Origin: Medicago truncatula
Lineage: Eukaryota > Streptophyta > Magnoliopsida > Fabales > Fabaceae
DNA: 64,000 nt
Assembly: GCF_003473485.1 (NCBI RefSeq)
Contig: NC_053048.1
Location: forward strand, 9,051,501-9,115,500
Direction: 5' to 3'
A model generated the notes under the pieces. That model was not told where the DNA came from and did no database searches. It saw nothing but the letters and a program-made list of their open reading frames with translations. A program made the position numbers and the translations under genes. Each line of letters opens with the position of its first letter. The first letter of the stretch is position 1. This document shows positions 7,426 through 42,453 of the stretch, piece after piece.

Positions 7426-8544
7426 CATCGGTGATGCTGCTAAGAATCAGGCTTCTTCTAACCCTACCAACACTGTCTTTGGTAAATTTCTATTCTCTAG
7501 TATATACATACTTTAGTTGATTAATGTTATTATCATGGTTTTAAAAGCGGTTGCAGTTATGCCGCAAATTTTTATATTGTTGATAATTGTGGTCAAATAA
7601 AGTTGTTGTAGTATCAAGTATGTGTATATTATGATTAAGACCACATCAGAAGTATTATGTTGTCACGGCCTAGGTTCAAATTGTAATCACACCCTATATA
7701 ATTGTTATTTTAATTAGCTGGAAAAAAAGAAGTGTTATGGGAAATAATTATTAATGTTTTCTTTCAGATGCTAAGGTTAATTGGTAGGAAGGTTTTTTGT
7801 TTCTGTTGTTCAAAATGATATGAAGTTGTGGCCATTCAAGGTCATTGGGGTGAATGACAAACCCACGATTATTGTTAAATACAAGGGTGAAGAGAAGCGT
7901 TTTTGTGCCGAGGAAATATCATCTATGATCCTTTCGAAGATGCGAGAGGTTGCAGAGAAATATTTAATGTCCCCCCGTAAAGAATGCAGTTGTTACTATG
8001 CCTGCTTACTTCAATGATTATCAGCAAAAAGCCACCATAGATGCCGGGGCCATTGCTGGCCTTAATATACCCCGGATATGGCCTTGACAAGAGGACAAAT
8101 TGTGCTGAAGAACGAAATATATTCATCTTCGACTAGAGGTATGCTTTGACATCAATGAAAATGGCATCTTAATCATTTCTGCTAGTGAAAAGTCTACTGG
8201 TAATAGGACTGAGATTCCAATAACTAATGATAAAGAAAGATTGTCATCTCAACAAATTAAAGAAATGACTAGAGACGCTGAAAATTACCGTATTGAAGCT
8301 GAGAAATTCCTAAGGAAGGCCAATTTAATGAATGGATTAGACTATTGCATTTACAAGATGAAGAATGCTCTAAAGAATAAGGATATTAAACTAAAGCTCT
8401 CTTCTCAAAGAAAATGACAAGATCAATCATACAATTACGAAGGCCACAAATTTGCTTGACTGTGACAAACAAAGTGAAATATATGTTCTGGAAAATCATC
8501 TGAAGGAGCTTGAGAGTATATTCCAACAAATACTAGGCGAGTAA
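7426..8544 (+). pseudogene. HSP70 pseudogene fused to copia debris (copy 2)
   Basis: The piece starts inside exon 1 at the codons for IGDAAKNQ, keeps the donor at 7481/7482 and the acceptor at 7767/7768, then exon 2. A 2-nt loss just after the acceptor shifts the frame (DAKRLIG is broken), another shift lies near MSPVKNAV at about 7970-7985, and a deletion near 8075 removes INEPTAAA. A large deletion at about 8133 joins IFIFD to the late substrate-binding domain ([10 protein letters not shown]), losing most of the nucleotide-binding domain. The surviving 3' end is closest to copy 3 (13479-15533). The last codons are displaced by a MITE, and translation would stop at 8542-8544 inside it. No functional product is expected. 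Confidence 0.92.
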
Positions 8545-9417
8545 ATAGTCAATTTCCCCCCTGAAATTGTAAGTTTCATCAATTACCCCCCTGAAATTAA
8601 CAAAACTTCAATTACCTCCCTAAAATTTCACAATGTTAGTCAATTTACCCCCTCCGTCAAATTTTTCTGTTAGTGAACATAACGTTTTGCAAATACCCCC
8701 CTGAAGTTTTGCACTTATGTGCAAAATGCCCCTCAAACTTAAAAATTTATATTATTTTTTTCTTAAAAACAAACAATTAATAGTTAAATATTAAAGCTAA
8801 CTATTAATTTTGGAGTTTGGAAAAACTACATACATATATACATCAAAATAGGGAAAAATGTGTATTTTTAAAGTGACAATAATGGTTATTTCTAATAGAC
8901 AAATTATTATTTTTAGAGGTTTATAAACAAATTAATAATCAGATTTAAATTTATATTTTCTCCTTCACCATCTTAGTCTTTTAACTCCTCCAACTCCTTC
9001 AACAATTTGCTCAAACCATTTAAACTACACAACCCTCAATATTAATCCACAAATCATCCTATTATTGTCACTTTAAAAAATACATATTTTTTCCCATTTT
9101 TGAGCCTATTTTGATGTATATATGCATGTAGTTTTCTCAAATTCCAAAATTAATAGTTAGTTTTAATATTTAACTATTAATTGTTTGTTTTTAAGAAAAA
9201 AATAATATAAATTTTTAAGTTTGGGGGCATTTTGCACATAAGTGCAAAACTTCAGGGGGGTATTTGCAAAACGTCATGTTCACTAACAGAAAAATTTGAC
9301 GGAGGGGGTAAATTGACTAACGTTGTGAAATTTCAGGGGGGTAATTGAAGTTTTGTTAATTTCAGGAGGGTAATTGATTAAACTTACAATTTTAGGAAGG
9401 AAATTGACTATTTACTC
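8539..9417. mobile_element. Near-palindromic MULE-type MITE inserted at an HSP70 stop codon
   Basis: The 879-bp element has inverted arms of about 350 bp starting GAGTAAATAGTCAATTT and a centre of about 180 bp. Near-identical flanks AATACTAGGC (8529-8538) and AATAATAGGC (9418-9427) are a 9-10 bp target duplication with one difference. Removing it restores codons matching the copy 3 ending QQIIGRYV and its stop, which proves the insertion site. No transposase is encoded. Confidence 0.9.
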
Positions 9418-20760: not shown

Positions 20761-23181
20761 CTAGGAAATATGACAGAAAAGAGAAACAATTTTGAGTAAC
20801 ATTTTTAACATGTTCGTCAGCTCCTTGAGATGATGCTCAAGAACATCTATATTTATCTGTTGGTTATTCTTATTCTTATCAAGCAAATTCATGGCCCCAA
20901 AAATTGCATTGTTGATCTTTTCACTTTCTTGAGGGGAGATGATTAGATTAACATCCTTCGTATTCAAAGCATTCGTTATATTCTTAACGCAAGAATCCAA
21001 TGCACTCATTACCGTGGCCTTCCTTAAAAATTTCATATCTTCCACAATTTTGAGTAACATGTTCAACATGCTGTTCATCTCCTTAAGATGATGCTCAAGA
21101 ACATCTATTTCTATATGTTGGTTATTCTTATTCATTTCGAGCAAATTCATGGCAACAATAATTGCATTGTTGATCTGCTCACTTTCTTGAGGGGAGAGGA
21201 TTAGATCAACATCCTTCATATTCAAAGCACTCTTTATATTGTAAACACAAGAATCCAATGCGCTTATTACTTTGGCCTTCCTCAAAAATTTCATATCTTC
21301 CACACGGTATTTCTCAGCTTCTTCAATCTTTTTTTCAATTTCAAACTTTGACAACCTTTCTTTCTCATTAGTGATGGTGATCTCGTTCAGAATTCCAGTG
21401 GTGATATCCTTACCAGAAACAGTTAAGATACCATTTTCATCAATGGAAAAGCATACCTCCAAGGGCTGACCACGGGGACCTGGAAGGCAAGAAAGTGTAA
21501 ATAAACCAAGCAGATTATTGTCACTAGCTCTTGGTCTCTCACCCTCATAAACAATAATAGAGGCACCACAATTATCTATAGCTGTACAATATCCTTTAGT
21601 ATTTTTGACAGGGATGGAAGTGTTCCTAGGAATCACCACATCCATGATATTTTCCCAATATGTTGCTGTTGCGATACCAAGTGACAATGGGGTAACATCA
21701 CGTAGCACCAAGTTGGGGACATTCTTAAAGTCTTCACTCAAAATAGCAGCCTGAACAGCAGCGCCATATGCAATAGCCTCATCTGGGTTGATATTCATAA
21801 ACAAAGCCTTCCCCTTGAAAAACTCTAGCAATAGATCCTGCACTTTGGGAATCCTAGACGAGCCACCCACGAGTACAACATCATCAATATCATTCTTGTA
21901 TATCTTTGAATCTCTGAGACAACTGTCAACAATATTGATACACTCATTGAAAAAGTCCATATTAATTTCCTCAAATTTAGCACGAGTGATTGATGAAGAA
22001 AAGTCGATTCCCATAAATAAAGCATCTACCTCAACAGTGGTGACAAAAGTAAAAGAGAGTATCCTTTTTGCCCTCTCACAGGCAGTTCTCAACCTCCTTA
22101 AGGATTTTGGGTTACCGCTAATTTCCACTTTATTCTTCTTTTTGAACTCCTCTACAAAGTAGTACACCATTCTGTTATCAAAGTCTTCTCCCCCTAGGTG
22201 CGTGTTTCCAGCAGTGGCTTTTACGTCAAAGACATCACCCTTAATTGTGAGTATAGACACATCAAAAGTACCACCACCAAGATCAAATACCAAAATATTC
22301 CGTTTACCATCATAGTTACTTCGCTTGTCAAGGCCATATGCAATAGCTGCGGCAGTAGGTTCATTGAGTATCCGAATGACGTTAAGTCCAGCAATGGCAC
22401 CAGCATCTATGGTTGCTTTTCGCTGAGAGTCATTGAAGTATGCCGGCACAGTAACAACGACATTTTTGACGGGTGATCCAAGGTATGCCTCTGCAATCTC
22501 TCGCATCTTTGTAAGAACCGCAGATGATATTTCCTCAGCACAAAATTGCTTCTCTTGACCTTTGTACTTAACAGTAATCATGGGTTTGTCATTAACACCA
22601 GAAGTAACCATGAATGGCCACAACATGATATCCTTTTGAACAATAGGATCACTATACTTCCTACCAATTAACCTCTTAGCATCTAAAAAAAAAATAATAA
22701 AGATATTAATAGTAAATTCTCATCATTTATTTGTGCAAATCAAGTTTTAAATTTTGGTTCACAATCACAGGATTATAGTAATCGCATCAGCCAATGATTG
22801 ATTGTGACACAACTACATTTGAGTAGCATCTAGTGATTTTCATTATGATAAAAAAAAAAAAAAAAAATTAATCTCTAAATTATCAAAAATCAATTAAAAA
22901 AAATAGATAACAAACAAACCCTAAATGCATGAAGTAATAGAGAATAAAAATAGAAATTTACCAAATACAGTGTTTTCGGGGTTGGTAGCAGATTGATTCT
23001 CAGCTCCATTGCCAATCAACCTTTGATAATCAGTGAAAGCAACAACAGAAGGTGTAGTTCTATTGCCTTGATCATTGTGAATAATCTCAACTCTATTGTG
23101 ATCGTCAAGCCACACAGCAACACATGAATAGGTTGTTCCGAGGTCTATTCCGACAGCACGTCCCTCGTATTTTCTTGCCAT
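20761..23181 (-). CDS. HSP70-family chaperone with duplicated lid (copy 4)
   Basis: Exons 23181-22962 and 22682-20761 encode 713 residues, about 90-100 longer than its neighbours. The ATPase domain is complete ([59 protein letters not shown]). The linker is [13 protein letters not shown]. The substrate-binding core is present with a small insertion ([12 protein letters not shown]) after TPLSLGIA. Residues about 534-619 and 620-705 are two tandem copies of the helical lid, each beginning [10 protein letters not shown] and ending LLKI. The tail is VSLFCHIS, without EEVD. Whether the doubled lid closes normally over substrate is unknown. Likely cytosolic: no targeting signal seen. Confidence 0.93.
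20788..21303 (-). repeat. In-frame 258-bp tandem duplication of the HSP70 lid
   Basis: Coding copy 1 is 21303-21046 and copy 2 is 21045-20788, exactly 86 codons each. By eye 67 of 86 residues are identical. Both copies are open and neither has a stop, so the duplication is not brand new yet has stayed translatable. Confidence 0.93.
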
Positions 23182-25914: not shown

Positions 25915-28077
25915 TCAATTGAAAAGATATCCTAAAAAAGAAGATTTGTGCTTATTCTCAATGCCAGTATTGACTACAAGCTTTTCCAACATGATTTCCA
26001 GCTCCTTCAGATGATCCTCAACAACATCTATTTTCTGCTGTTTGTTATTCTCATGAAGCAAGTTTGTTGCCAAGGTAGTTGCATTGTTGATCTTTTCCCT
26101 TTCTCCACGGGAGAGGTTTAAATTAACATCCTTCTTTTTTAACGCATTCTTCACTTTGTAAACACAATAATCCAAATCATTCATTACTTTGGCCTTCCTT
26201 AAAAATTCCTTATCTTCCATACGGTATCTCTCAGCTTCTTCAATCATTTTGTTAATTTCAAATGTTGACAATCTTTCTTTTTCATTGTTTATGGTGATCT
26301 GGTTCATATTTCCTGAAGATATTTCCTTAGCCGAAACTGTTAAAATGCCATTTTCATTGATTGAAAAACATACCTCCAAGGGAGTGCCACGAGGAGCACC
26401 TGGACGGCAAGAAAGTTTGAACGAACCAAGCAGATTGTTGTCTAGCGCTCTTGCTCTCTCACCCTCGTAAACACGAATCGAGACAACACCATTGTCACAA
26501 CCAGTTGCATATCCTTTTGTCTTCCTGAGAGGCACAGTAGTGTTCCTTGGAATCACTACACCCATGACATGATCAACATCTACTGCGATACCAAGTGACA
26601 ATGGGGTAACATCTTGCAGCACCAAGTTTGGGACATTCTTAAAGCCTTTGCTTAAAACAGCAGCTTGAAGAGCTGCACCATAAGCAACAGCCTCATCTGG
26701 GTTGATACTCTTGTATAAAACCTTCTTTGGGAAAAGGTCTTGCAATAGATCTTGCACTTTGGGAATCCTAGACGAACCACCCACAAGAACAATATCGTCA
26801 ATATCACTCATCTGTATTTTTGAATCGCTAAGACAACTCTCAACAGTTTTCATACACTCATTAAAAAGATCCATATTCATTTCCTCAAACCTGGCACGAG
26901 TGATTAATGAACAGAAGTCTATTCCCTGAAATAAAGAATCGACCTCAACAGTGGTGACAAAAGCAAAAGAGAGTGTCCTCTTTGCCCTCTCACAGGCAGT
27001 TCTCAACCTCCTTAAGGATTTTGGGTTACCACTAATGTCCACTTTATTCTTCTTTTTGAACTCCTCTACAAAGTAGTTCACCATTCTGCTATCAAAGTCC
27101 TCTCCTCCAAGGTGAGTGTTTCCAGAAGTGGCTTTTACTTCAAAGACATCACCCTTCATTGTAAGGATAGACACATCAAAAGTACCACCACCAAGATCAA
27201 AGACCAAAATATTTTGTTTACCATCACAGTCACCTCTCTTGTCAAAACCATATGCAATAGCTGCAGCAGTAGGTTCATTAATTATCTGAATGACATTAAG
27301 GCCAGCAATGGCACCGGAATCTATGGTGGCTTTTCGCTGAGAATCATTGAACTATGCAGGCACTGTAACAACAGCATTCTTCACAGGTGACATTAGATAT
27401 GTCTCTGCAACTTCTCGCATTTTTGTAAGTACCATAGATGATATTTCCTCCGCACAAAAGTGCTTCTCCTGACCCTTGTACTGAACATTAATCATGAGTT
27501 TGTCGTTCACACCAGCGATAACCTTGAATGGCCACAACATCATGTCTTTTTGAACAACTGAATCACTAAACTTCCTACCAATTAATCTCTTTGCATCTGA
27601 AAATAGAAAGTTATCAGTAGTAATTCTCATCCTTCATTTGTTTAGTTAACATAGCAATTGCATATAATTCTTGAACATCTTTATCAATAAACCATTGTTA
27701 AAAGAATATATATATTTTGATTATGATAAACAAATACACAATAATTTCTGTTTTAAAAGCTTCTGAAAATTAATCTCTAAATTATTAAATATCAAAATCA
27801 ATTTTTTTTTAATAGGCAACAAACAGTAATTGGTAGAGAATACAAATAGAAATTAACCAAAAACAGTGTTTACAGGATTGGTTGCAGCCTGATTCTTAGC
27901 AGCATCACCAATCAACCTTTGATCGTCAGTGAAAGCAACAAATGAAGGTGTTGTTTTGTTTCCTTGGTCGTTGTAGATGATCTCGACTCGATTGTGATTC
28001 TCCAGCCACACAGCAACACACGAATAGGTTGTTCCAAGGTCTATTCCAATAGCACGTCCTTCGTACTTTATCCCCAT
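25915..28077 (-). pseudogene. HSP70 gene with a single premature stop (copy 5)
   Basis: Exons 28077-27858 and 27596-25915 form one frame of 633 sense codons if one stop is ignored: TAG at 27354-27352, codon 155, replacing the Tyr of VPAYFND seen in all other copies. Splice sites, motifs ([47 protein letters not shown]) and the linker [13 protein letters not shown] are otherwise preserved. One other unusual change nearby is VIQIINEP instead of VIRIINEP. The C-terminus ends SFLGYLFN, without EEVD. Reinitiation downstream would start after the first phosphate loop and could not make a working ATPase. Alternatively the stop is a sequence error or a natural polymorphism. Confidence 0.88.
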
Positions 28078-31264: not shown

Positions 31265-32000
31265 TCCAGTGCATTCGTTGCTTTGTTCTTCGCTATGATT
31301 TTTGTGATCTTTGACACGGTAACACTCAGCTTCTTGAATCAATTTGTTAATTTCTTCCATTAACAATCTTTCTTTGTTGTTTGTTATTGTTGTCTCGTTG
31401 GTACTTCCAGTGGATTGTTCCTTAGCAGTAACAGTTAGGATTCAATTTTCATGAACAGAAAAGCATACATCAAAAGACGGCCGCAAGGAGTAAGGGTAAA
31501 ATGAGAATAAAAGAACCTAGCAGATTTTTCTACAATTTGGTCACTAAATTATCGATCCCTACTTAATTTTTCTATAAAATTTCAAGGCTTCACTCAACAA
31601 TTCAGTCTGGACTGCCACACCATAAGCAGCCACTTCATCAGAGTTAATGCTCTTGCATAGAACTCTTGCCCGTCTTGGCATAATGGATAGAACTTAAATC
31701 AACTTAAAAAATTCTTGTAATAGTTGTACTTTCGGAATTCTAGAGGAGCCACCAACAAGGACAACATAATGGATAAAACTCATGTCCATCTCGGCAGTAA
31801 TAAGACAACTCTCAACAGTTTCCAAACACGTTGAAAAGATCCATATTGATTTCATCATACTTGGCACGAGCGAAGGATAAAAAGAAGTTTAAGCGCTGAA
31901 ACAAAGAATCTACCTTAATAGTGGTGACAAAAGAAAAAAAATATTGTCATTTCGTCTCCATCGCACACCGTTCCCAACCTCCTTATGGCCCTTGCGTTCA
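31265..32000 (-). pseudogene. HSP70 internal and 3' remnant
   Basis: Minus-strand reading begins around the RRL region of the ATPase domain. It continues through a recognisable [13 protein letters not shown] region (about 31730-31770), skips to the end of the substrate-binding domain (about 31440-31500) and reaches the lid, where homology stops at 31265. Many frameshifts and deletions. It is the mirror copy of 41405-42453. Confidence 0.85.
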
Positions 32001-32174
32001 CAATAGCATCAGTGGAAAATACAATGCACACATTTCTGATTTTGATTAGAAAAAGTTGGACCAGAGATATAAAACTTAGTACAAAGATCAATTCAATAAC
32101 TGGAAATAAACAAACATTAAACTATATTTAGATAGTATGGTTCATAATTATTTCAAAATTCACACACGTAAATC

Positions 32175-33250
32175 AATCTCGACAGTGGCTTTTAGATACT
32201 TTTGAACTTATCCAAACAGTCCTTGAACACCTCTTTCTTATTTTGTTGGCTAGAATAAAGTAGAATTTTGGCATTTGAAACTGCAAAATTGATCTTTAAT
32301 TCATCTTGTTTGTGAAGCTAAGAACCAATACCCTCCAAAGCCTTGTTTAACTTGTAAACAAAATAATCCAGAGCATTCACTGCTTTAACTTTTTTCTAGT
32401 ACTTTTCGTCTTCAGCCTTGTATTTCTCAGATTCTTCAATCATGCTTATGAAGCTATGAAGCAACAATGATGCTCTTACACAGATCCTTCCCATTGTAGT
32501 TGCTGCACCATTTGTAAAAAGGCCCGTATTCACATATTCACTGTCTCCATACACTTTGTAAAAAGGTCCATATTGATTTCCTCAAACCTCGCACGAGTTA
32601 TTGATGAACAAAATTCAATATTTAAAGGAAAGCATCTTCTACTCGAAGGTAAGTCCCTCCGGCAGTGTCTTTACCTTCAAAGACTTCAACTTTAATTATG
32701 AGTATAGACATATCAATTGTGCCTCCATCAATATCAAATATGAAAATATTCCTCTCTTTTGAAGCCCATGTGCAAAAAAAAAGCAGCAGCATCAGTTAGA
32801 CAGAAATAAGGTGCGAATTACATTAAGGTTGGCAATGGCACCAGCCTCTTTGATGGCCTTAAGGTGAGAATCATTCAAATAAGCTGGCACTATAACAATT
32901 GCATTCTTGACAGAGGATTCCGAATCTCTCAAAACTTTGAGGACTGTAGACAGAAATAATAGGATCATTCCGAATGAGCTTAGAGGGCCATAACATTAGA
33001 TCATTGTGAATAGTTGGATCACTATAGTTCCTTGACATGGAAGGCATGTCCAATGTCTGAAACATGTTATTGTTCTACACCGGCGGGCTGTTATATGTGC
33101 CTGATTTTAATCACTTTTACTTTTTCAGTGTGAGGGCTGTGTGTCAAATGTCTGTTGGTTCGTTGTGCATGATCTCAGCCAGATTAGTTTGACCCTACCA
33201 TATAGCTACATACGAGTAGGTTGTGCGAAGGTCAATTCTAATTGCAGGCC
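32175..33250 (-). pseudogene. HSP70 remnant related to copy 1
   Basis: From 33250 the minus strand reads a decayed AIRIDLRTTYSYVAIW, then an intron relic, then [17 protein letters not shown]. Pieces of the ATPase domain follow (a GGTID-like relic near 32710, RARFEE near 32590) and a lid end near 32175-32420. Most of the protein is deleted or shifted. It lies between copy 9 and the remnant at 31265 and is the counterpart of 40398-41217. Confidence 0.82.
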
Positions 33251-33997: not shown

Positions 33998-36298
33998 TTA
34001 TCCAAGAAAAATAAAATTATTAGCCTTGGATATAAGGTGTTTCGACATTCTCTCCAGCTCCTCCAGATAACCCTCAAGAACATCTATTTCTTTCTCTTTT
34101 TTATTCTTATCAAGCAAATCCATAGCAACAGTAATTGCATTGTTGATCTTTGCAATTTCTTGAGGGGAGAGAATCAGATTAACATCCTTCTTCTTTAAAG
34201 CCTTCTTCATATTGTAAACACAAGAATCTAATTCACACATTACCTTGGCCCTTCTTAAAAATTGCATATCTTCCACATGGTATTTCTCAGCTTCTTTAAT
34301 CATTTTTTCAATGTCGAACATTGACAACCTTTCTTTGTCATTGGTTATGGTGATCATGTTCATATTGCCTGTGGATATTTCCCTAGCAGTAACAGTCAGG
34401 ATACCATTTTCATCAATTGAAAAGCATACCTCCAAGGGCTGGCCACGGGGACCTGGAAGACAACGAAGCCCAAATGAACCAAGCAGATTATTGTCAGCAG
34501 CTCTTGGTCTCTCACCCTCATAAACAAGAAAATTGACAAGGCACTGGTTATCATAAAGGGTGGAATATCGACTTGTCTTCTTGACAGGTATGGAAGTGTT
34601 TCTAGGAATCACCACACTCATGATATGTTCAATACTTACAGAAATACCAAGTGACAAAGGGGTCACATCTCGTAGCACCAAGTTGGGGACATTCTTACAG
34701 CCTTCACTCAAAATAGCAGCCTGAACAGCTGCACCATAAGCAACAGCCTCGTCTGGGTTGATACCCATGAATAATTCCTTCCCCTTGAAATATTCTAGCA
34801 ATTGTTCCTGCACTTTGGGAATCCTAGACGAGCCACCGACAAGTACAACATCATCAATATCATTCTTGTATATCTTTGAATCCCTGAGACAGGTGTCAAC
34901 TATATTCATACACTCATTGAAAAAGTCCATGTTAAGTTCCTCAAATTTAGCACGAGTAATTGATGAACAAAAGTCGATTCCCGTAAATAAAGCATCTACC
35001 TCAACAGTGGTAACAAAAGCAAAAGAGAGTATCCTTTTTGCCCTCTCACAGGCAGTTCTCAACCTCCTTAAGGATTTTGGGTTCTGACTGATGTCCACTT
35101 TATTCTTCTTTTTTAACTCCTCAACAAAATAGTTCACCATTCTGTTATCGAAGTCCTCGCCCCCAAGGTGAGTGTTTCCTGCAGTGGCTTTCACTTCAAA
35201 GACATCACCCTTAATTGTGAGGATAGACACATCAAAAGTCCCGCCACCCAGATCAAAGACAAAAATATTTCGGCTACCATCACAGTCATTTCTCTTGTCA
35301 AGGCCATATGCAATAGCTGCCGCAGTAGGTTCATTGATTATCCGAATGACATTAAGTCCAGCAATAGTACCAGCATCTATGGTGGCCTTTCGCTGAGAAT
35401 CATTGAAGTAAGCTGGCACAGTAACAACGGCATTCTTGACCGGCGACCCCAGATATGCCTCCGCAACCTCTCGCATCTTTGTAAGCACCATAGAAGATAT
35501 TTCCTCAGCACAAAAGTGCTTCTCTTGACCCTTGTACTTAACAGTAATCATAGGTTTGTCATTAACACCAGAAATAACCTTGAATGGCCACAACAATATA
35601 TCTCTTTGAACAACGGGGTCACTAAACTTCCTACCAATTAACCTCTTAGCATCTGCAAAAATAGCAATTGCATACTAATTAGGGTTTAAAAAAAAATGTT
35701 TTCAAAAGTGACATCAAGAATATTTACACAACTGCATTTGAGTAGTTACTTTAAAACCCAATTTCAATACATGATTTTAACGATGATAAAGAAATAGTAA
35801 ATTTCCATCATTCATCATTTATCCAGCTAATTAGGGTTTTAAAAAAATGTTTTCGACAGTGAAATCAAGAATCTTTACTCAACTGCATTTGAGTAGTTTC
35901 TTTAAAAACCAATTTCAAGACATGATTTTAACCATGATAAACAAACACAATATACCTTCTTTTAAAAAGAAATCTCTAAATTATTTATATCAAAAGCAAT
36001 TTTTTTCAAACCAACAACAAAAGAAACCTAAATACATTCATGAAGCAGTAAATAATAGAAATAGAAATAGAAATTTACCAAAGATAGTGTTTTCAGGGTT
36101 AGTAGCAGATTGATTCTTAGCAGCATCGCCAATCAACCTTTGTTCATTGTTGAAAGCAACAAAAGAAGGTGTTATTCGGTTTCCTTGATCATTGTGAATA
36201 ATCTCAACTCTTTGGTGTTGATCAAGCCACACAGCAACACATGAATAGGTTGTTCCAAGATCTATTCCCACTGCACGTCCTTCGTATTCTTTTGCCAT
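33998..36298 (-). CDS. HSP70-family chaperone without EEVD tail (copy 9)
   Basis: Exons 36298-36079 and 35652-33998 encode 624 residues. The start gives MAKEYEG like the other copies; an in-frame ATG nine codons upstream (36325) is possible but lacks family support. Motifs are intact: [46 protein letters not shown] and [13 protein letters not shown]. The linker is [13 protein letters not shown]. The lid ends [10 protein letters not shown], with no EEVD. It is close to copy 4 but has one lid. A damaged mirror copy, lacking exon 1, lies at 38855-39942. The first intron (426 bp) contains a 151-bp direct duplication. Likely a cytosolic or nuclear ATP-driven chaperone. Confidence 0.94.
35675..35955. 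repeat. 151-bp direct duplication inside the copy 9 intron
   Basis: Units starting CTAATTAGGGTTT at 35675 and 35826 share CAACTGCATTTGAGTAGT and most of their length. The mirror copy near 38.68-38.82 kb has a single unit, so the duplication arose after the arms separated, or was lost from one arm. Confidence 0.8.
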
Positions 36299-36423: not shown

Positions 36424-37244
36424 GGAGAAACAAAAGAGTGTCCTTAATAGTGGTGCGTTATATCCGAATGAGAAATGGTGAATTCTTTTAGAGGATGAAA
36501 AAAAGAGAGAAAGAAAGAAAGAAATTTTATCAATTTTTTTTATCAAATTTTTAATACAAATGACAAAACGTGTCACCATAACTGAATTTGACACAATACG
36601 TGGGCAGTGGGCACTAATAAACCGTTATTTGCTTTCTTTCAATGTTTTTTCGTTGGTAAAATATAAAAATTAAATGAATATACTTTTTTTGAAAGAATTA
36701 ATTAATATACTTTGTTTTGTCAAAAAGAAGAAAAAAAATGCGTTGCCACATTAAGTATAATGAATATGATAATTCATAATTTTATATTTATCAATTGACG
36801 TGACAATATATCATTCAGATACATATGTAAAATAAGTGTACACTAATAAAGTATATTAATTAAATTTTAAAAATTCCTTAAAAAAACTAAAAATAAATAA
36901 TGTTTCTTAGTAAATAAAACGGAAATCTCTTTGATTATATTGTTGGTAGATTGTAAATTTCCTTATTTTAATAACATTCTTTTTCGTGTATTTGCACGGA
37001 CCGGTAACATTGAATAATTATTATAAAAATAATTACATTGATAATATTGTAAAATGTTCATAAATATTAAATAAAAATTATCAGCATTAATGTAATGTTT
37101 CTATTAAAAAAATATTTCTTATATGACAAAATTCATTAAATATTTGCATCACGTCCGTTGTGAATTTCATTTGCTTATATTTGTAGTAGCAAATTTTTAT
37201 ATACCGATTTGATTTTTTTTTTTTTTGAGGGAATATACCGATTT
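36424..37244. other. AT-rich spacer of the divergent inverted duplication
   Basis: No gene seen. A degenerate copy of the downstream 139-bp repeat is recognisable at about 37080-37180. Confidence 0.5.
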
Positions 37245-37740
37245 GATAAAATTTTGAAAACTCACGACTGTTTTCAAAATATGAACATTAATGTAGTGTT
37301 TCTATTAAATGTATATTTTTGTTTATATGTAAAACTTTGTTAAATATTTTCACCGTGCCCGTTGTACATTTGAAAGTTGATATGATAAAATTTTGAAAAC
37401 TCGCGACTGTTTTCAAAATATGAACATTAATGTAGTGTTTCTATTAAATGTATATTTTTGTTTATATGTAAAACTTTGTTAAATATTTTCACCGTGCCCG
37501 TTGTACATTTGAAAGTTGATATGATAAAATTTTGAAAACTCGCGACTGTTTTCAAAATATGAACATTAATGTAGTGTTTCTATTAAATGTATATTTTTGT
37601 TTATATGTAAAACTTTGTTAAATATTTTCACCGCGCCCGTTGTACATTTGAAAGTTGATATGATAAAATTTTGAAAACGTATAACTGTATTTCTAAAATA
37701 TATATATAAACATTAATGTAATGTTTCTAGTAAATACTTT
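37245..37740. repeat. 139-bp tandem repeat, three full units plus a decayed fourth
   Basis: Units start GATAAAATTTTGAAAAC at 37245, 37384, 37523 and 37662, exactly 139 bp apart. Units 1-3 are nearly identical. Each begins with a 10-bp perfect stem (TTTTGAAAAC and GTTTTCAAAA) around an 8-base GC-bearing loop, and ends with a short GC box (CCGTGCCCGTTGTAC). It occupies the spacer between the inverted arms. Confidence 0.95.
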
Positions 37741-38854: not shown

Positions 38855-39942
38855 GATTGTTAATTGGTAGGAAGTTTAGTGATCCGGTTGTTCAAAGAGA
38901 TATATTGTTGTGGCCATTCAAGGTTATTTCTGGTGTTAATGACAAACCTATGATTACTGTCAAGTACGAAGGTCTAGAGAAGCAATTTTGTGCTGAGGAA
39001 ATATCTTCTATGGTGCTTACAAAGATGCGAGAGGTTGCGGAGGCATATCTGGAGTCACCGGTCAAGAATGCCGTTGTTACCGTGCCAGCTTACTTCAATG
39101 ATTCTCAGCGAACGGCCACCATTGATGCTGGTACTATTGCTGGACTTAATGTCATTCGGATAATCAATGAACCTACTGCTGCAGCTATTGCATATGGCCT
39201 TGACAAGAGAAATGACCGTGAAGGTAACCGAAATATTTTTGTCTTTGATCTGCTATTTTGAGCAAAGGCTTTAAGAATGTCCCCAACTTGGTGCTACGAG
39301 ATGTTACGCCATTGTCACTTGGTATTGCTGCAAGGATTGAACATATCATGAGTGTGGTGATTCCAAGAAACACTTCCATACCTGTCACAAAGACAAATCG
39401 ATATACCACCTTATATGATAACCAGCGCATTGTCCTTGTATTGCATATGGCCTTGACAAGAGAGACCAAGACCAAGAGACCAGCGCGTTCATTTACACTT
39501 CCTTGTATTCCAGGTCCCCATGACCACCTTATATTGCATCCTAACTGTTACTGCTAGGGAAATATCCACAGGCAATATAAATGCTATCACCATTACTAAC
39601 AACAAAGACAGGTTGTCAATGTTCGACATTGAAAAAATGATTAAAGAAGCTGAGAAATATCATGTGGAAGATATGCAATTTTTAAGAAGGGCCAAGGTAA
39701 TGTGTGCATTAGATTCTTGTGTTTACAATATGAAGAACGCTTTAGAGAAGAACAATGTTAATCTGATTCTCTCCCCTCAAGAAATTGCAAAGATCAACAA
39801 TGCAATTACTGTTGCTATGGATTTGCTTGATATGAATAAAAAAGAGAAAGAAATAGATGTTCTTGAGGGTTATCTGGAGGAGCTGGAGAGAATGTCGAAA
39901 CACCTTATATCCAAGGCTAATAATTTTATTTTTCTTGGATAA
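38855..39942 (+). pseudogene. HSP70 pseudogene, mirror copy of copy 9
   Basis: It lacks exon 1 and any promoter. After the intron acceptor the exon 2 start is damaged (DAKR lost), then [14 protein letters not shown] and the NBD are open to IFVFDL near 39250. There a deletion of roughly 200 codons joins it to [16 protein letters not shown] in another frame. A second rearrangement at about 39430-39545 removes part of the substrate-binding domain. The last 130 codons, from [11 protein letters not shown] to [10 protein letters not shown] and the stop at 39942, are intact and almost the same as copy 9. Confidence 0.92.
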
Positions 39943-40397
39943 GATTTTAAGTGATGTCTTGCTTTTGAAAGTGCTGAATGCAGACCTTTAGTTTTATTAT
40001 CATTATCTAATAGCATTGAAGTTTATGTTAATGTTTGTGTTTCACATGTTACTTTTTTTTTTCTTTCTGTTTTCTGTATTGTAAATCATGCTAACTCTAT
40101 TCTAGTTTTAGCAGTATCCTTCTCAGACTTAATAATCTTTATGAATTTACTTGCCTCATCATGTTTATATGCTTAATTACAGGGAAGTGACATTAATTCA
40201 TTCTCTTAATTAAATAGAAACTGAACATTAAATATCAAATATTGACTGTGAGTTGCAATTATTTAAGTGAATATTCTCATTAACAGTATAATATTAACAT
40301 GGACACATTCAGATAACTTTTATATTCCATTTGATAGATATAAAAACAAACCAGAATCATTCAACAACGATATGTCTCTCTTTCTCTTCTGAAATGA

Positions 40398-41217
40398 ATG
40401 GCTAAAAAATATGAGGGGCACATGCAATTGGAATTGGCCCTGGCAAAACCTACTCATGTGTAGCTATATGGCAGGGTCAAACTAATCTGGCTGAGATCAT
40501 GCACAATGAACTAATAGACATCAGTACAAGCTTGCCGGTGTCGAACAATAACACGTTTCAGACATTAGACATGCCTTCGATTTCAAGGAAGTATAACGAT
40601 CCAATTACTCAGAATTATCTAATGTTATGGCCCTCTAAGCTCATTCAGAGTGATCCGATAATTTCTGTCTACAGTCCTCATAAAGATTAAGAACCTCGTG
40701 TGAAAAAGAAAAAATAACATCTGCGTTTGCTGTTGATACCATTACTGAGATAGATGTTTTCTTTGGAAAATATTGATTTTTGTTCATCATAACTCGTGCG
40801 CGGTTTGAGGAACTCAATATGGACCTTTTTACCAATGAATGGTGCAGCAAATATTCCAACGGGAAGGATATGTTAAATGTATATTTTTAACATAGATGCT
40901 GAGGGAGACTCTACTGAGAAAATCATGAGCATGATTGAAGAATCTGAGAAATACAAGGATGAAGATGAAAAGTACTAGAAAAAAGTTAAAGCAGTGAATG
41001 CTCTGGATTATTTTGTTTACAAGTTAAACAAGGCTTTGGAGGGTATTGGTTCTTAGCTTCCCAAACAAGATGAATTAAAGATCAATTTTGCAGTTTCAAA
41101 GGCCAAAATTTTACTTTATCGGAGCCAACAAAATAAGAAAGAGGTGTTCAAGAACCGTTTGGATAATTAGATGAAGAGTACCGTAATCGTAAAAGCAATA
41201 TCCAGATTGATTTACTA
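40398..41217 (+). pseudogene. HSP70 remnant related to copy 1
   Basis: It starts MAKKYEG with a frameshift right after, then recognisable TYSCVAIW. A deletion joins this through intron-relic text (CGGTGTCGAACAATAAC) to SRKYNDPITQNYLMLWP. Further deletions and stops follow: [12 protein letters not shown] near 40795, then lid pieces from about 40915 to the end. The 3' end matches copy 1's ending and 3' flank. It lies on the right inverted arm, and its left-arm counterpart is 32175-33250. Confidence 0.85.
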
Positions 41218-41404
41218 GTAATTTTCGAATTTAGGCATGTGAAATTTGAAATAATTATGAACCATATTATCTAAATATAGTTTAATGTTAGTTTATTTCC
41301 AGTTATCGAATTGATCCTTGCACTCAGTTTTATATCTCTGGTCCAACTTTTGCCAATCAAAATTAGAAATTTGTGCACTGTATTTTTCACCGATGCTATT
41401 GTGA

Positions 41405-42453
41405 GCGCGAGCGCAAGGACCATAAGGAGGTTTGGAACGCATGCGATTGAGACAAAATGACAATATTTTTTGCTTTTGCCACCACCTTTAAGGTAGATTC
41501 TTTGTTTCAGTACTTAAACTTCTTCTTATCCATCGCTCGTGCCAAGTTTGAGGAAATCAATATCAATCTTTTCAACGAGTGTTTGGAAACTGTTGAGAAT
41601 TGTCTTATTGATGCCAAGATGGACATAAGTTTTATCCATTATGTTGTCCTTGTTGGTGGCTCCTCTAGAATTCCAAAAGTACAACTCTTACAAGAATTTT
41701 TCAAGTTGATTTAAGTTCTATCCATTATGCCAAGATGGACATGAGTTCAATGCAAGAGTAGTAACCCTGATGAAGTGGCCACTTATGGTGCGGCAGTGCA
41801 GACTGAATTGTTGAGTGAAGGCTTGAAATTTTTTAGTTCACAGACTAAATTGATGTAACTTTCATTGTTTAGGAGTCTATTAGTTGATTTAAATAGTTTA
41901 GGGACTAAATTAACGAGGGGATCAATAGTTTGGTGACCAAATTGTAGATAACAAATGCGGCTTCCTAATCAAGGTTTCAAAGGGTGAGAGAAAAATCTGC
42001 TAGGTTCTTTTATTCTTGGTTTCCCCTTACTCTTCGCGGCCATGTTTTGATGTACGCTTTTCTGTTCATGAAAATTGAATCCTAACTCTTACTGCTAAGG
42101 AACAATCCACCGGAAATACCAACGAGATAACAATAACAAACAACAAAGAAAGGTTGTCAATAGAAGAAATTAACAAATTGATTCAAGAAGCTGAGTGTTA
42201 CTGTGTCAAAGATCACAAATTCATAGTGAAGAACAAAGCAATGAATGCACTGGATCACTCCCTTTACAGGTTGAGAAATGCTTTGCAGAATGATGATATT
42301 AATGTAAAGCTGTCCTCACTATATTTGTTCGACGAGTATATTAATTTAAAGCTTTCCTCACTACAAAAGGATCAGATTGAAATAAAAGTTCTGAAAGATC
42401 ATCAAAAAAAGCTTGCAAATTTATTTATAAACATTATAGCCAAAATGTGCTAG
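41405..42453 (+). pseudogene. HSP70 internal and 3' remnant, mirror of 31265-32000
   Basis: It begins at a decayed RRL region, then [31 protein letters not shown] and [13 protein letters not shown] in frame to 41690. A break follows, then YGAAVQTELLSEG near 41790. An AT-rich piece at 41835-41960 replaces the linker region. The last 100 codons (TGNTNEITITNNKERL to IIAKMC, stop at 42453) are open. It carries a short internal duplication, KLSSLYLF and KLSSLQKD. Confidence 0.87.

Follow-up and report, generated by a model that had tools for sequence, protein, structure and literature searches.

Among the moving parts of protein folding, the helical lid of Hsp70 has been studied intensively, and a gene of Medicago truncatula that encodes this lid twice in a row raises the question of how such a protein arose and whether its second copy works as a lid at all. 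The gene lies within a window of 64,000 nucleotides (C7:9051501-9115500), the whole stretch of DNA analysed here, to which all positions given without a contig refer. A GT..AG splice model from 22962 to 22682 yields a single open frame of 713 aa, hereafter the double-lid gene, whose second exon is contained in a stop-to-stop frame of 652 aa (20761-22719). Its features are as follows:

23181-22962, minus strand: exon 1, with the start codon at 23181-23179, coding for the N-terminal portion of the NBD.
22961-22683, minus strand: intron at the DAKR codons, splitting TVF from DAKRL.
22682-20761, minus strand: exon 2, with the remaining NBD, the linker, SBD-beta, lid A, lid B, the tail and the stop codon (20763-20761).
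21301-21699, minus strand: SBD-beta and the initial portion of the long lid helix, in single copy, beginning DVTPLSL and with eight predicted strands.
21300-21043, minus strand: lid A, the first in the protein, 86 codons, starting inside the long first helix of the lid and extending to its last helix.
21042-20785, minus strand: lid B, the second unit, 86 codons.
20784-20764, minus strand: C-terminal tail translated as SLFCHIS, EEVD absent.
21302-21304, unstranded: ACA microhomology of 3 bp after the second DNA copy, the same ACA that opens both units (20786-20788 and 21044-21046).

Exon 2 alone matches the PF00012 profile with 571 bits (cut-off 20.6; profile positions 64-591 of 599), the match comprising residues 1-541 of 640 and reaching only through the first lid. 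When a 215-aa query beginning shortly before the lid was compared with solved structures, its residues 1-119 matched Hsp70 chains, among them Heat shock protein 70A of 7n6g (E 7.8e-19, residues 1-119) and Heat shock 70 kDa protein 1A of 7kw7 (E 1.4e-13, residues 2-119). Lid A occupies residues 37-122 of this query, and residues 37-119 align to solved Hsp70 lids. Both the profile match and this alignment confirm that, as the original prediction had it, the repeated piece is the helical lid of an HSP70. The double-lid gene is a truncated cytosolic-type Hsp70 with two abutting in-frame lid units. Matches to the heat-shock-element pattern (at most one mismatch) number 26 against 35 expected by chance, with none between 21149 and 25766, and hence give no sign of heat control for this gene; a search of the whole window against Rfam gave no match.

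At the DNA level, the repeat consists of two direct copies of 258 nt placed head to tail (20786-21043 and 21044-21301, spacing 258) with 88% identity (227/258 nt in this register). Aligned in codon phase, lid A and lid B share 67/86 aa and 226/258 nt, their 32 differing sites falling 7/8/17 at codon positions 1/2/3, and both units are devoid of stops and frameshifts. The original prediction had thus described two in-frame 86-codon segments, 67 of 86 residues identical and with no stop, exactly; its coordinates (20788..21303) located the repeat, with the ends 2-3 nt off. The units abut exactly and, in a comparison of the flanks, similarity outside their edges is at background level. The presence of ACA at both unit starts and just after the second copy fits a microhomology-type tandem duplication. 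A chance origin of the repeat is excluded by its self-match: in a scan for internal repeats by diagonal scoring, which recovers the known lid repeat as a positive control, the off-diagonal score is 334 for the double-lid gene, whereas the remaining 45 Hsp70-like frames reach no more than 50 and 12 shuffled sequences no more than 42.

The architecture had been called unusual, and it is indeed rare in this genome (429.9 Mb in 42 contigs searched). The genome search with PF00012 gave at least 61 match rows, such counts being lower bounds with 53 of 251 candidates scored. We compared 40 regions covering 42 of these rows, plus eight rows inside the window; 11 more lie outside this comparison, six at C2:17.65-17.75 Mb (profile positions 1-404 only) and five at C8:46.457-46.459 Mb. 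The compared loci and the window contain 50 frames of at least 250 aa, and an internal repeat occurs in one of the 46 that are Hsp70-like. A two-lid query, with all 80 candidates scored, matched 55 places in the genome, a single one of which covers both units; it reaches only lids fairly similar to lid A or lid B, and canonical lids do not appear among its 55 places. Residues 1-181 of this query are matched over two-lid length by the double-lid gene only: the row at C2:7610218-7610490 is listed for residues 2-178 yet spans 273 nt, which is one lid length, and the row pairs at C1:33.15 and C1:33.41 Mb likewise remain within about one lid length. There is therefore no second double-lid gene among the 55 lid matches. 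A duplicated Hsp70 lid was not found in the literature searched by titles and abstract openings, which is weak evidence of its absence from print.

The double-lid gene belongs to a tandem cluster with at least 13 exon-2 matches to PF00012 at C7:8.956-9.087 Mb. One of the Hsp70 copies in the window (25918-28077, minus strand) has an otherwise open exon 2 with one in-frame TAG, located between VPA and FNDSQR in a conserved NBD stretch. Two fragments on the plus strand (38859-39252 and 39533-40074) show 95-96% complementarity with portions of the Hsp70 gene at 34.0-36.3 kb and apparently represent a recent inverted partial copy, now broken. Broken Hsp70 copies at 31301-33245 (minus strand) and 40418-42450 (plus strand) contain three segments mutually 92-95% complementary, which suggests an inverted duplication. 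The window also contains a tandem array (37240-37691) with a period of 139 bp and copies 95-99% identical, as well as an inverted repeat of 230 nt (8539-8768 and 9188-9417, 90% complementary, 419 nt apart) that may be a small transposon or a hairpin source. Other C-termini were observed elsewhere in the genome: in another cluster, the Hsp70 frames L040 and L041 (625-628 aa, C6:11.71-11.75 Mb) carry a different extension with a rather hydrophobic end (GDITGIVSS..), and L020, L021, L024 and L030 have an acidic serine-rich tail (DEESDSD or similar) where EEVD would stand.

The two lids arose by duplication within the double-lid gene itself. In a tree with 23 relatives, lids A and B are sisters with an ultrafast bootstrap of 100 and branch lengths of about 0.07 each, and each of them has a two-residue insertion at columns gapped in all 33 relatives with enough lid aligned; two of these 33, both in L036, have one extra residue beside the insertion columns in the tail comparison. 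The sister grouping and the common two-residue insertion place the duplication inside this gene and rule out another paralogue as the source of lid B. Between A and B, the NG86 estimates are dS 0.265 and dN 0.110, dS being 0.169 by LWL85 and 0.307 by YN00. To the four nearest paralogues, dS is 0.33-0.49 for the NBD, 0.32-0.51 for the lid and 0.27-0.49 for SBD-beta. Since the lowest SBD-beta value (0.267, to the nearest paralogue, L038) equals that between A and B, the relative age relies on the other domains and the tree. The duplication is most likely younger than the split of the gene from its relatives and, very roughly and according to the branch lengths, about half as old; gene conversion between A and B would make it look younger than it is. 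We propose that in one member of the tandem array, already a truncated cytosolic Hsp70, 258 bp (86 codons) were duplicated in tandem a single time within the gene, which would have doubled the lid from inside its first long helix onward, with the 3-bp microhomology at the ends. A unit length divisible by three and the position at the C-terminal end kept the frame open.

What the second unit adds to the protein can be approached from its predicted structure. The AlphaFold2 model of 312 residues of the double-lid protein (eight-row alignment; mean pLDDT 79.1, pTM 0.45) contains eight beta strands in residues 5-109 and helices at 118-159, 170-191, 198-245, 248-253, 256-277 and 284-311, block pLDDT being 70-93 over residues 131-310. 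Helix 198-245 is continuous from lid A into lid B. In the model of the single-lid paralogue at 34.0 kb (mean pLDDT 71.8, pTM 0.43, eight strands; helices 117-159, 169-186 and 195-217), the counterpart of this helix ends at 217. Lid A is thus predicted to have the usual layout, with its last helix continuing into the first helix of lid B, which is predicted to repeat the pattern; all lid-only rows of the eight-row alignment lined up with lid A, so that the prediction of lid B drew on hardly any sequences aligned to it. Structure prediction, proposed at the outset as a check, therefore yields the lid helices twice, joined by one continuous helix, and leaves their placement, that of lid B included, uncertain given a pTM of 0.45. 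The nearest folds found by Foldseek are Hsp70 SBDs (best 6zhi, E 1.9e-15), with query TM-scores of 0.25-0.35 among the 50 matches listed, and in view of these low scores we do not interpret the orientation of the lid in the model. The repeat unit begins at model residue 134, inside helix 118-159, and consequently the opening stretch of that helix (helix A, the hinge) is missing from lid B. Nor does lid B have a separate beta-sandwich on which it could close. This anatomy does not support the original view of the second copy as a second lid acting in series.

Selection was examined with codon trees of five sequences for the NBD and SBD-beta and of six for the lid. On the gene's own branch, omega is 0.128 for the NBD (omega=1 rejected, p=1.2e-10) and 0.285 for SBD-beta (p=0.025 against 1). 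Imposing neutrality over the last 50%, 25% or 10% of the NBD branch, in synonymous time, worsens the fit by 2dlnL of 23.9, 11.8 and 4.1, respectively; neutrality is rejected across the last half and the last quarter and marginally disfavoured for the last tenth. Together with the low NBD omega, this rejection of recent neutrality implies that the gene is no old dead copy, and the protein has most likely been maintained after the lid doubled. For the lids, omega is 0.30 on the lid A branch (p=0.06 against 1) and 0.70 on the lid B branch (p=0.62 against 1), neither of them significantly different from the one-ratio lid value of 0.536, and no lid-branch contrast is significant. The dN/dS comparison between the lid copies, another of the checks proposed, gave a pairwise GY94 omega of 0.43 that is not significantly below 1 (2dlnL 3.25, p=0.07). 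At the 19 sites where A and B differ, the state of the nearest relatives is kept at seven by A, at seven by B and at five by neither; given this even count and the lack of a significant lid-branch contrast, we do not regard lid B as clearly the decaying copy. At one position, lid B has a lysine in place of the tyrosine found in 32 of 33 relatives. In a simulation of substitutions without indels, 16 hits leave about 62% of neutral copies free of stops, and the open frame is mild evidence for constraint. Omega against the four nearest paralogues is 0.12-0.17 for the NBD and 0.43-0.79 for the lid, and these fast-evolving family lids help to explain how a lid duplication could be tolerated. The claim that the double lid has been tolerated or selected for some time thus stands as regards the frame, which remained open during the divergence of the two copies (dS between A and B 0.17-0.31, according to three methods), and the NBD, under strong purifying selection; it does not extend to selection on lid B itself.

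With the gene structure and the maintenance of the NBD established, the whole probably reflects an intragenic tandem duplication by which a T1 Type II truncated Hsp70 acquired an appendage of helices at its C-terminus, lid B being most likely tolerated. The NBD, linker, SBD-beta and lid A are all still present, and the protein would be an ATP-driven peptide-binding chaperone using lid A, which keeps its helical connection to SBD-beta and so should serve as the lid. Canonical Hsp70s have a flexible EEVD tail at their C-terminus, and it is there, at the end of the protein, that lid B would hang, most likely folded into another bundle of helices that carries on from the last helix of lid A, if the predicted helices pack as expected. 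Located behind lid A and without the hinge, lid B could not share the place of lid A simultaneously and would extend the protein. At most weakly constrained, it might retard the movement of the lid or present a surface for binding other proteins; slower lid opening, dimerisation and partner docking are possible roles. In C. elegans Hsc70, according to the accessible part of PMC3315512, lid truncation altered ATP turnover and co-chaperone binding and abolished folding.

It appears rather unlikely that lid B has been selected for an added function such as changed substrate release, dimerisation or a binding surface replacing the EEVD tail. The NBD tests indicate maintenance of the protein over roughly the period that has passed since the lid doubled, omega between A and B (0.43) lies close to that of the family lids (0.54), the frame is open despite 32 differences, and other T1 members have C-terminal extensions of their own (L040 and L041 here, and Type IV in the accessible part of PMC10687569), but omega on the lid B branch is not significantly below 1, the tyrosine conserved in nearly all relatives has been lost from lid B, and the 55 lid matches include no second gene of this kind. 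Likewise rather unlikely is a maintained Hsp70 in which two lid bundles follow one another and the second has replaced the EEVD tail as a novel C-terminal module, altering lid kinetics or partner binding. We regard as improbable that the locus is unexpressed or recently dead and the double lid a by-product of its decay. Several broken Hsp70 pieces occur in the window (tblastn), an in-frame stop interrupts the neighbour at 25.9-28.1 kb, and T1 transcripts are scarce in four other species, with hardly any detected in Arabidopsis and very low levels in sunflower, peanut and Litsea (accessible part of PMC10687569); however, the start, the splice sites and the 713-aa frame are intact, and the NBD omega on the gene's own branch, with neutrality over its last quarter or half rejected, speaks against decay, a death within about the last tenth of the branch being only marginally disfavoured. 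The dense array of similar genes makes misassembly possible in principle, yet the doubling of one lid by misassembly or by joining paralogous reads is extremely improbable: an artefact would give identical copies or a match to another locus, whereas the copies differ at 32/258 sites, their 78% amino acid identity compares with at most 68% to any other lid match found among the 55 places, and A and B group in the tree with a common insertion. Should the second lid be no more than a tolerated appendage, as we favour, it would exemplify how new C-termini arise from fast-evolving lids in truncated plant Hsp70s. A natural double-lid protein in a gene under selection also provides a ready-made test of the contributions of the lid end and the C-terminal tail.

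Canonical plant cytosolic Hsp70s (for example L010 and L012 of this genome) resemble the double-lid gene along the alignment in NBD, linker position, SBD-beta and first lid, but they have a single lid and a glycine-rich tail ending GPKIEEVD, and the double-lid gene has neither; the glycine-rich CTD is absent from its protein. Lid A is 43-64% identical to the 15 nearest of the 33 relatives compared and 29% identical to the single canonical lid of L011 given by tblastn. The linker reads DLLLLD in the canonical Hsp70s aligned and NLVLRD in the double-lid gene (21697-21714, minus strand), L038, L042 and the copy at 33998-35674, a change in the allosteric interdomain linker common to all four truncated members aligned. 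As far as the accessible part of PMC10687569 describes this group, the double-lid gene fits the 'T1 Type II' truncated cytosolic Hsp70s, which it resembles in its cytosolic-type NBD and SBD-beta, DAKR intron, lack of EEVD, deleted CTD, atypical, divergent lid and large tandem cluster, an assignment based on EEVD absence, the DAKR intron and the CTD/lid form, with a tree that took in the lids of truncated members only. The same source places the intron at DAKR in plant full-length cytosolic Hsp70 and T1 genes, with T2 genes devoid of it, and describes Fabaceae as T1-rich, naming Medicago truncatula as one of the species whose T1 cluster exceeds 10 genes. The double-lid gene differs from Type II in having the lid unit twice, a duplicated SBD-alpha not being described in the accessible part of PMC10687569. 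It also recalls the T1 Type IV of Laurales, in which, in that same part, an atypical lid is followed by an extra C-terminal extension, helical in Group B. Conservation of the extension among species is a criterion of Type IV there, and the extension here, lid B, has been seen in one genome; moreover, the Group B extension contains a conserved leucine-rich helix, whereas that of the double-lid gene is a copy of its own lid.
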